Below are positions 17,553-55,728 of a stretch of 64,000 nt of DNA, piece after piece. Origin of the DNA: Erysipelothrix tonsillarum DSM 14972 (GTDB lineage: Bacteria; Bacillota_I; Bacilli_A; Erysipelotrichales; Erysipelotrichaceae); NCBI RefSeq assembly GCF_000373785.1, contig NZ_KB892380.1, forward strand, positions 114,860 through 178,859. The letters run 5' to 3'. The first letter of the stretch is position 1. The number at the start of each line of letters is the position of its first letter. Under the pieces are notes generated by a model. It ran no database searches. It saw only the letters and a list, made by a program, of their open reading frames with translations, and was not told where the DNA came from. The position numbers and the translations under genes were made by a program.

Positions 17553-19098
17553 ATAAAACATGTTTTATCAAATCTTCTCGAACTGCTGCACTTGACTGCA
17601 TATCCGTTAAGATATTTAATGTATCCCCCGCAAGCATGACAGAATCACCATGCGGGATAAATTCATGATCTCCGCGACTAATACTTGTAAGTAAGCAGGA
17701 ATGCGGCCATCGTACATCACGTACCATACAACCATCAAGATGACTCTCTACATGAACACATATTTCAATAACTTCTTTTTCTCCAGAGATATTAGGAGCC
17801 CGTTCCCCTACTAAACGTTCAAGCATTGCCTCATATACCGGCTCTCCGCCGCAAACATCCGCTACAACGTATGCAACCAACGACACGACTGCTATTGGCA
17901 TGAGATGATTGAAATTCCCAACCATTTCTGTAATCAGTACAATTGCCGTCAAGGGTGCCTTACCAATCGCTGTGAAATAGCCCGCCATAGCTATTACGAT
18001 GAATGATTTCATAAGAGCAGGATTTAAATCAAACAGTGAAATAACTACCCCTCCATAAATCGCTCCCAACAATGCACCTAATGAAAGAATCGGTAAAAAG
18101 ATTCCTCCAGGTAACCCTGATCCGTAAGATATCATTGAAAAAATAAATCGCAATATAAAAATAACAATCAAAACTGTCACTGGAAAAGGATTATCCACCA
18201 GGATATGTATGATATCACTTCCACCACCAATAAGATGGGGATAAAATATACCGATTGGAATCACCATTAAAAATGGAATGACACCGTAAAAATATGGTGG
18301 GATTTTAGTGATTTTCGCATAGATTGTTGGAATCCAAAGGACAACCTTTTGATATATAAAACCTGCAACGCCTAAAACAAGACCCAAACCAACAATCAGT
18401 CCATAGTGCTTTAACTCAAAATACTCAAGCAGTCCAAATGATAATATGGGCTGTTGACCAAAGAAAAATAGCGAAACAAAATTTGCTGTCGTCGTTGCAG
18501 CGAGCGTTGTAAGGAGCACAATTGGCGAAAAATTATGGTGAACCTCTTCCAGTACAAACAACAACCCCGCCACAGGCGCGTTAAACGCTGCTGCAAGACC
18601 CGCACCGGCTCCACTTGACACCAATACTTTCTCCGACATCTTATTACCCTTAAAACCTTGATTAACGCCTTGTCCGATTGCAGCCCCTAATTGGATTGAA
18701 GGTCCTTCTCGACCAAGAAAGAGTCCCGACCCAATCGCTAATACGCCCGCTATTCCTTTACGAATCAAAACCGAAAGCCAATTCATTTCCATCATGCCAA
18801 GTAATTGGCCTTCAATTTGCGGTATTCCACTCCCTTTTATCATTGGATCTTTTTTTATAATCAATCCAATAATTATTGCAATCACGATTGAACCAGCCAC
18901 CCATAAGCCCAACCACTCAGGATTTTGCCTTAGCGCAACATAACCTAATTTCACAAATCCTAAAAGTTCTTCGATAAGATATCGAAATAAACTAACAAGC
19001 AACCCTGCACCAATTCCAACTAAAATACCTTTCCCAATAAATACTAAACGTGTTTGATCAAAACAATTTATGGCACATTGTTTTTCCTTTGTCTTCAA
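17551..19098 (-). CDS. ClC-type chloride channel/transporter with RCK_C domain
   Basis: A 515-residue ClC family membrane protein. The anion-pathway motifs are all visible: GSGIPQ (near residue 91), GREGPSIQLG with the gating glutamate, and GSGLPGGIFLPIL. After about ten membrane helices there is a soluble C-terminal RCK_C (TrkA-C) domain of about 75 residues ending GDSVMLAGDTLNILTD, which in relatives binds a regulatory ligand. Presence of the gating glutamate suggests a Cl-/H+ exchanger rather than a plain channel. GREGP and the Ser of GSGIP argue for chloride; it lacks the features of fluoride-specific CLC-F proteins as far as I can judge. Start is TTG at 19098 after AAGGAGT. Confidence 0.93.
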   Translation of the reverse strand: MKTKEKQCAINCFDQTRLVFIGKGILVGIGAGLLVSLFRYLIEELLGFVKLGYVALRQNPEWLGLWVAGSIVIAIIIGLIIKKDPMIKGSGIPQIEGQLLGMMEMNWLSVLIRKGIAGVLAIGSGLFLGREGPSIQLGAAIGQGVNQGFKGNKMSEKVLVSSGAGAGLAAAFNAPVAGLLFVLEEVHHNFSPIVLLTTLAATTTANFVSLFFFGQQPILSFGLLEYFELKHYGLIVGLGLVLGVAGFIYQKVVLWIPTIYAKITKIPPYFYGVIPFLMVIPIGIFYPHLIGGGSDIIHILVDNPFPVTVLIVIFILRFIFSMISYGSGLPGGIFLPILSLGALLGAIYGGVVISLFDLNPALMKSFIVIAMAGYFTAIGKAPLTAIVLITEMVGNFNHLMPIAVVSLVAYVVADVCGGEPVYEAMLERLVGERAPNISGEKEVIEICVHVESHLDGCMVRDVRWPHSCLLTSISRGDHEFIPHGDSVMLAGDTLNILTDMQSSAAVREDLIKHVL

Positions 19099-53709: not shown

Positions 53710-54879
53710 TTAATCTATTTTTTTAGCACTTTCCAATAGGATCGGCGCTGCAAGATTCATACCGATTGCGCCAATCGGTGTTGTTAATAGTATTGCTAAG
53801 ACCGAAAGTGCGAGAATGACTTCACCATGGGGCACCCCCAAAGCTAGTGGCACCCCTCCCATAGCAGCTTGTACTGTAGCTTTAGGGATATAGGAAATTA
53901 CAACAAATATTCGTTCTTTTAAGTTCAAATTTGTACCTACTAGCGACAACATCACTCCCAACGACCGCATAAAAAGCGCAACTACAATCACAACGAGACC
54001 AATTGCTCCCGATGAGCTTATCGCATTTAAATTCACTTGGGCTCCAACCAAAACAAAAAGAAAAATTTCAGCAACAATCCAAATTTTATCCATAGCCTCG
54101 GATAAATATCGTCCTAAATCAGGTTTTTGTTCTTGAATGATGGCGGCACTCGTCATCACGCCTAAAAGGGATGCAATTGGAATCTTGGATTCTAATTGGT
54201 ACAGGCATATGGATAACGCAACTAACACAAACACAGACTCTGGTTGTTTCTTAGCAACCTTGCTGAACGTTAACCCTATGATCCCCCCAAGGAACACCCC
54301 TAAAATAAGCATTATCGGTAATTTCATGAGCATAATCCCCCATGATGAATAGCCTTGAGTATGTATTCCTAAAAAAATCGAAAAGAATGTGATTGCAACT
54401 GTGTCATCAAGTGATGCCGCAGCTAAAATCATTGTAGGTATGTTTTTATTCGTTCCCAATTCTTCCTTTTCAAGATGAATCATCATCGGAACAACAACCG
54501 CTGGCGAAACTGCTGCAAGAATAAATCCAAGCATCCCTGCTTGCGCTATATTAAATTCAAAAAAATAAATGCTTAAAACCATAGCGGTAATCCCTTCAAC
54601 CATCCCTGGAATAAAACTCAACAAAATCGATGGACGACCAACCTGGACTAATTTTTCTCGTTTTAAACCAAAACCTGCTCGAAGCAGAATTACAATCAGG
54701 GCCATTGAACGTAAATCTGGTCCAAGTTCTAAGAATGTTGGGGCCAACCTATTAAACCCAAACGGTCCCAAAACAATTCCTAAGATGATAAGAAAAAGCA
54801 AGCTAGGAACGTTCAAACATCTCCCAATTTTTTTTAAAACAAGACCCAATAGAATGATAATTGCGATTGTATATGCCAT
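53710..54879 (-). CDS. Cation/proton antiporter (CPA family), riboswitch-controlled
   Basis: A 389-residue antiporter with about 12 membrane segments. ASLDDTVAI (residues about 153-161) carries the two aspartates of the ion site in CPA2-type antiporters, and the N-terminal LLFLIILGIVLGPFGFNRLAP is the usual first-helices stretch. It exchanges a cation such as Na+ or K+ for H+. Its leader is a fluoride-type riboswitch with an overlapping terminator, so it should rise with fluoride and may relieve acid or ion stress linked with fluoride. Start ATG follows GGAGGAAAT right after the terminator. Confidence 0.88.
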   Translation of the reverse strand: MAYTIAIIILLGLVLKKIGRCLNVPSLLFLIILGIVLGPFGFNRLAPTFLELGPDLRSMALIVILLRAGFGLKREKLVQVGRPSILLSFIPGMVEGITAMVLSIYFFEFNIAQAGMLGFILAAVSPAVVVPMMIHLEKEELGTNKNIPTMILAAASLDDTVAITFFSIFLGIHTQGYSSWGIMLMKLPIMLILGVFLGGIIGLTFSKVAKKQPESVFVLVALSICLYQLESKIPIASLLGVMTSAAIIQEQKPDLGRYLSEAMDKIWIVAEIFLFVLVGAQVNLNAISSSGAIGLVVIVVALFMRSLGVMLSLVGTNLNLKERIFVVISYIPKATVQAAMGGVPLALGVPHGEVILALSVLAILLTTPIGAIGMNLAAPILLESAKKID

Positions 54880-54888
54880 ATTTCCTCC

Positions 54889-54932
54889 AAAAAAAACTCC
54901 TGCAAAAAGACCCTTCGGTCTCTTGCAGGAGT
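54889..54932 (-). terminator. Riboswitch expression-platform terminator
   Basis: A 10-bp stem (ACTCCTGCAA with TTGCAGGAGT, 54896-54905 and 54923-54932) holds a nested 5-bp hairpin (AGACC with GGTCT) and is followed by a tract of 7-8 T on the minus strand. Its 5' arm is the ACTCC that the aptamer uses for its pseudoknot, so aptamer folding and termination exclude each other. Confidence 0.88.
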
Positions 54933-54971
54933 CATCAGCTGTCGCGGTTAGGGGCGAACTCCATCGCCTAT
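54923..54971 (-). ncRNA. Fluoride riboswitch (crcB motif) aptamer
   Basis: The minus-strand leader reads AGGCGATGGAGTTCGCC, then AACCGCGACAGCTGATGACTCC. This matches the crcB-motif core: GGCGAUGG-UUCGCC stem with GGAGU in the loop and, after a small hairpin, UGAUGACUCC, whose ACUCC pairs back with the loop GGAGU as the pseudoknot. The motif is known to bind fluoride and to turn genes on. The start of the RNA falls just after an extended -10 box at 54979-54984. Confidence 0.88.
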
Positions 54972-54978
54972 TTGTATA

Positions 54979-54987
54979 ATTATATCA
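54979..54987 (-). promoter_or_regulatory. Extended -10 promoter of riboswitch RNA
   Basis: On the minus strand TGATATAAT reads as an extended -10 box. It lies just downstream of the cutC stop and about 7 bases before the aptamer, so the RNA starts almost at the aptamer. A -35 box is weak, as is usual with an extended -10. Confidence 0.65.
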
Positions 54988-54990
54988 CAC

Positions 54991-55728
54991 TTATTCGCTG
55001 CATTTTATTTTTTCAATAAACGCTTTTAATTTTTCGAACCCAACGCCTTCATAATCACCATAGTCGCTATAACGATACGAGACACCATCACTATGTGTTG
55101 TTGGATCATGATGCCATACCTTAAAGGAACTATGTAGCTGGCAAATCCCCGTCTCGCCGATTATTTTTAATGCATTATCTTGGTTAACCCCCGCCCCGAC
55201 ACATAATTCAATATCCTCACCATAATGCTCTTGTAAATGTTTAAGGAGCTTGATGCCGTTTTCTGCACTCGCTTCTAAACCACTTGTTAAAACACGATCA
55301 ACACCACAATCCACTAAATCATCCATCGCCTGGACGGGATCTTTAACCCGATCAAAGGCACGATGAAAAATCGCTTCAATACCCTTATCTTTACACAGAT
55401 TAACAAAAAAACGTGTCAATTCTTTATCCACAGTACTATCTTCATTCAAGAAGCCAAAAACGAGACCATCTGTGCCATGTTCAATGAGTAGGCGCGCATC
55501 GCAAATCATCGTTTCGACTTCGAGTTCACTATAACAAAAACCGCCACCACGAGGACGAACCATCGTGATAATGGGAATTGTGGTCCGTTTTTTGGCCTCA
55601 ATAAGCATCCCAACACTTGGCGTTAATCCACCTAAAAACAAACCGCTATTCAGTTCGATTCGCGAAGCCCCACAAGCCTCTGCAACAACACAGTCTTCGA
55701 CGCTTCCAGCACACACTTCAACAATCAT
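54991..55728 (-). CDS. cutC: CutC family protein
   Basis: A 245-residue TIM-barrel protein of the CutC family, named for copper homeostasis in E. coli, though its role as a copper protein is disputed. IELNSGLFLGGLTPSVG, ITMVRPRGGGFCYSE and FHRAFDRVKDP are the family stretches. Start MIVEVCAGSVEDC follows AAAAGGAGTTGT. It is upstream of the riboswitch promoter and appears to be its own unit downstream of the upp terminator. Confidence 0.92.
   Translation of the reverse strand: MIVEVCAGSVEDCVVAEACGASRIELNSGLFLGGLTPSVGMLIEAKKRTTIPIITMVRPRGGGFCYSELEVETMICDARLLIEHGTDGLVFGFLNEDSTVDKELTRFFVNLCKDKGIEAIFHRAFDRVKDPVQAMDDLVDCGVDRVLTSGLEASAENGIKLLKHLQEHYGEDIELCVGAGVNQDNALKIIGETGICQLHSSFKVWHHDPTTHSDGVSYRYSDYGDYEGVGFEKLKAFIEKIKCSE

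Follow-up and report, generated by a model that had tools for sequence, protein, structure and literature searches.

A fluoride riboswitch ahead of an NHA2-like cation/proton antiporter in Erysipelothrix tonsillarum

The fluoride riboswitch of B. cereus uses one overlapping tract of RNA in two ways, as part of a pseudoknot when ligand is bound and as the base of a terminator when it is not (PMC11077080). Among the targets of fluoride riboswitches, Na+/H+ antiporters rank as the second most common class, and their published role is pH homeostasis within a response that includes export (PMC11139923). The original prediction for the present locus also counted antiporters among crcB-motif targets. 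At CD0656-0657 of C. difficile, a fluoride riboswitch stands ahead of a CLC and NhaP-type antiporter pair (PMC11477304). Among animal exchangers, NHA2 is electroneutral and carries Na+ and Li+, with no K+ or Cl- transport seen, and it has a Glu-Arg salt bridge that has been called NHA2-specific (PMC8850199).

The window analyzed here is a 64 kb stretch of the Erysipelothrix tonsillarum DSM 14972 genome. A cmscan search with all of Rfam gives one gathering-level match in it, a fluoride riboswitch aptamer (crcB motif, RF01734) at 54977-54919 on the minus strand. The match covers the full-length model (positions 1-64) and scores 57.1 bits (E 3.5e-13), 23 bits above the gathering cut-off of 34 bits, so the locus passes the covariance search that had been proposed as a check. 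Every motif named in the original prediction is also present on the minus strand, from the crcB-motif core to the GGAGU/ACUCC pseudoknot. The P1 stem pairs GGCG (54968-54965) with CGCC (54956-54953), and UGAUGACUCC ends at 54928 on the same strand. The 5' arm of the pseudoknot, GGAGU, lies in the P1 loop (54958-54962, minus strand) and pairs with the 3' arm, ACUCC (54928-54932, minus strand), which sequence, fold and covariation place within the 5' arm of the terminator as well. These loop and tail arms covary among relatives, appearing as GGAGU/ACUCC, GAAGU/ACUUC, GGUGU/ACGCC and GAUGU/ACGUC. Judged by its sequence, the element has the loop-to-tail pseudoknot of the RF01734 class and is a genuine fluoride riboswitch of textbook type, with a predicted response to the ligand. 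No other RF01734 copy occurs in the assembly (1.93 Mb, 97% complete).

Downstream of the aptamer lies an intrinsic terminator (54889-54933, minus strand) with a stem of about 17 pairs and one bulge, formed by a 5' arm at 54933-54917, a GAAG loop at 54916-54913 and a 3' arm at 54912-54895. The fold of 54933-54895 has a minimum free energy of -26.8 kcal/mol (z -7.5), and none of 200 shuffles is as stable. A tract of 8 T (54896-54889) follows the stem, and after it comes the ribosome binding site GGAGG (54884-54888, minus strand), 4 nt before the ATG at 54879. The terminator, T residues and ribosome binding site are therefore present as first described, but the 10-bp stem assigned then is too short, because an inner AGACC/GGUCU pairing extends it. 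The terminator contains ACUCC itself, which makes the expression platform, as read from these letters, mutually exclusive with the aptamer. This arrangement is conserved: of 71 related riboswitches that could be scored, 66 have the pseudoknot 3' arm base-paired within a downstream hairpin that carries a T tract, against a mean of 25 and a maximum of 31 when the downstream part is dinucleotide-shuffled.

Direct reading upstream of the aptamer identifies TGATATAAT (54979-54987, minus strand) as a predicted promoter element that is a perfect extended -10. No good -35 element accompanies it, and a consensus promoter scan, which needs a -35, leaves it unreported. From the position of TGATATAAT, the transcript likely starts about 4 nt upstream of P1. 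Immediately upstream is a CutC-family gene (54991-55728, minus strand; PF03932, E 3.7e-57), which shares the strand and is probably a neighbor, not part of the riboswitch-antiporter unit. The order is the same in a one-contig relative from the same genus (G130, locus L244), where a cutC homologue stands ahead of the riboswitch. In that relative (G130:C1:437000-438700) the orthologous antiporter is divided into two overlapping frames, 327-509 and 455-1477, with the riboswitch intact; this is a frameshift, which may reflect either a pseudogene or an assembly error.

In the established mechanism of the class, carried over to this locus, Mg2+-F- binding would lock the pseudoknot, the terminator could then not form, and the antiporter would be made. 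The ON switch first proposed for this leader agrees with the mechanism of the B. cereus element (PMC11077080), and its architecture is conserved with covarying arms. A transcriptional fluoride ON switch that works here and controls a cation/proton antiporter is accordingly rated as very likely. In one in vitro transcription assay, the functional share of 1901 fluoride riboswitch sequences was only 17% (PMC13273304), which speaks for a degenerate, non-functional relic or a chance match. Such a reading is extremely improbable for this locus, whose aptamer core is intact and well above the gathering cut-off, whose terminator is far more stable than its shuffles, and whose riboswitch is conserved within the genus and beyond.

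The gene behind the switch (53710-54879, minus strand) encodes a 389-aa NHA/SLC9B-like cation/proton antiporter, identified by its similarity to NHA2/SLC9B2 and by a PF00999 match (E 2.7e-45; 155.3 bits against a curated cut-off of 26.2). It is the only PF00999 exchanger in the genome. Across the family to which the window belongs, RF01734 is found in 60 of 146 genomes, and by coordinates 57 of these 60 riboswitches have an orthologue of the antiporter immediately downstream, mostly 35-92 nt away. The three exceptions are a switch at a contig end (G111), a switch that precedes a CLC gene (G054) and a weak match (G004). Viewed from the protein side, a riboswitch lies upstream in 57 of 68 members of the antiporter clade (> 90 bits). 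The 12 scored paralogues of weak similarity all lack one, a count that leaves out a thirteenth low-scoring match, the fragment of the split G130 orthologue.

The association extends beyond the family. RF01734 is found upstream of 43 of 80 named, more distant antiporter relatives from species genomes, including those of Clostridium, Tissierella, Sedimentibacter, Acetivibrio, Ruminococcus, Gemmiger, a Fusobacterium MAG, spirochaete MAGs and others, so that records with the riboswitch-antiporter pair among the 80 come from Bacillota, Fusobacteria and Spirochaetes. Within the same 80, it is absent upstream of the Kiritimatiellales, Planctomycetes, Cytophagales and Alkalibacterium relatives. The Alkalibacterium loci (L061, L064, L066 and L067) carry a T-box leader right after the antiporter gene. 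The conservation of the pair, both in the family and among distant relatives, supports the earlier suggestion that the antiporter serves fluoride tolerance, a role that stays putative. From the genome sequence, the antiporter looks like the main fluoride-induced gene in this organism.

Comparison with solved structures places the protein more closely. A profile of 36 relatives matches mammalian NHA2 (SLC9B2) with 255 bits (E 1e-74), an NhaP-type antiporter with 79.5 bits and NapA with 31 bits. Searched on its own, the window protein likewise ranks NHA2 above NhaP, with NHA2/SLC9B2 chains as its best solved relatives (E 7.8e-37). For a paralogue from the same family, NapA is the top match and NHA2 gives none. 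By these scores, the antiporter is assigned to the NHA (SLC9B) branch over the NapA, NhaP and NhaA structures, and similarity to solved NHA2 settles its predicted fold. The ion-binding DD motif (D158, D159) and K333 in PKATVQAA are invariant in all 36 sequences, as are E95 and R305, whose aligned positions in NHA2 form the Glu-Arg salt bridge. These intact residues favor cation/proton exchange, and by analogy the protein is probably a Na+ (or K+)/H+ exchanger.

The known fluoride exporters are scarce in these genomes. No Fluc (PF02537) is found in the genome of the window, and the same search is positive in 10 of 14 control genomes. The single CLC of the genome, at 17857-18879 (minus strand) in the window, has the chloride-type signature GSGIP and GREGP, and no fluoride riboswitch is present at this gene. 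The genome check for crcB/fluc and CLC-F that accompanied the original prediction thus yields neither a Fluc nor a CLC of the CLC-F type. In the family, Fluc exceeds the cut-off in only 8 genomes, none of which has the riboswitch. Family CLCs divide into a chloride type and a group that lacks the serine of GSGIP and reads GMxLVF or GTNLVI, together with GREG[AV]; this group is provisionally called CLC-F-like, a class given by motif only, except for three proteins classed by length and score. A cross-count of the good-quality family genomes that carry the riboswitch-antiporter unit finds neither Fluc nor a CLC-F-like protein in about 32 of 41. Of the genomes of the 43 named relatives with the riboswitch, one has Fluc at or above the cut-off and five or six have CLC-F-like proteins, leaving about 36 genomes, some of them incomplete, with neither. 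In the 80 named loci, a blastp search with four CLC queries and the ORFs from two Fluc loci detects neither CLC-F nor Fluc up to about 3 kb from the antiporter.

A strong mutual exclusion of the antiporter and the known exporters is not claimed, as CLC-F-like proteins occur in about a quarter of the antiporter genomes and known exporters have a similar share in genomes without the antiporter. One family genome (G108, L172; G108:C5:51000-54300) has the riboswitch, then the antiporter, then a gene of the CLC-F-like group (GMTLVF, GREGV) on one strand, in an apparent fluoride operon. Together with the CLC partnership in C. difficile, it indicates that antiporters of this kind can act alongside an exporter, too.

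How a cation/proton exchanger might protect against fluoride can be framed in terms of the pH gradient. HF would enter the cell as a weak acid and be trapped as F- by the inside-alkaline gradient. Exchange of incoming H+ for outgoing cations would lower this gradient and with it the trapping of F-, and would counter the ion imbalance; this would be the weaker step of the scheme. In this genome, the antiporter would act without any recognizable F- exporter. Lowering of the pH gradient as the protective route is put forward tentatively, at somewhat short of an even chance. Against it, pH homeostasis is usually seen as support for an exporter, whereas neither Fluc nor CLC-F was found here, and H+ entry driven by the exchanger would acidify the cytoplasm, at a cost. 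The broader proposal, that an NHA/SLC9B-type exchanger is a stand-alone fluoride defense with no dedicated exporter in much of the family and in related clostridia, is possible but doubtful.

Two other readings keep fluoride export in the picture. The antiporter-fold protein might export fluoride itself, by F-/H+ or cation-coupled transport, and so replace Fluc and CLC-F. In its favor, this is the sole gene under riboswitch control, most unit-bearing genomes lack both Fluc and CLC-F-like proteins, and no riboswitch-bearing family genome has Fluc above the cut-off. Direct fluoride transport is nevertheless very unlikely, because the NHA2/NapA-type cation site is fully kept, with the DD motif, E95, R305 and K333 invariant. 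The substrates of NHA2, Na+ and Li+ with neither K+ nor Cl- (PMC8850199), also speak against it, no anion site is evident, and clade members without a riboswitch have identical key residues. It is unlikely, too, that the antiporter is accessory to another fluoride exporter of this genome, one that is unrecognized or non-homologous. The gene order in G108 and the riboswitch ahead of the CLC and NhaP-type pair in C. difficile (PMC11477304) are what such a partnership would look like. Here, however, PF02537 is lacking, the single CLC is of the chloride type and has no riboswitch, the fluoride riboswitch is unique in the genome, and the named loci show no CLC-F or Fluc close to the antiporter.

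While the riboswitch itself is textbook, its target belongs to a conserved clade of bacterial proteins that resemble animal NHA2, and in many genomes this NHA2-like antiporter is the only recognizable fluoride-induced gene. What remains of interest is that this and many related genomes seem to lack a recognized fluoride exporter, which raises the testable idea that fluoride is survived by management of pH and cation gradients instead of F- export. The clade would also provide models in bacteria for a branch of exchangers about which most knowledge comes from animals.

Set against the described systems, the pairing of an ON switch with a Na+/H+ antiporter target is ordinary and of a kind already known. 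The locus resembles the B. cereus crcB switch in its aptamer core, its pseudoknot and a terminator that overlaps the 3' pseudoknot strand (PMC11077080), but it has a short second aptamer stem, a trait of many clostridial copies (a 59-nt match to the 64-position model), and its target is the antiporter, not crcB. With C. difficile CD0656-0657 it shares a fluoride riboswitch that controls a cation/H+ antiporter, a likeness by annotation since the protein there is annotated as NhaP (PMC11477304). In that operon a CLC is included, whereas here the antiporter follows the switch directly and no CLC-F-like gene is found in the genome. Mammalian NHA2 has an extra N-terminal helix and, unlike the riboswitch-controlled bacterial antiporter, no link to fluoride was found for it; the DD motif, PKATVQAA and the Glu-Arg pair of NHA2/SLC9B2 are all kept in the bacterial protein.
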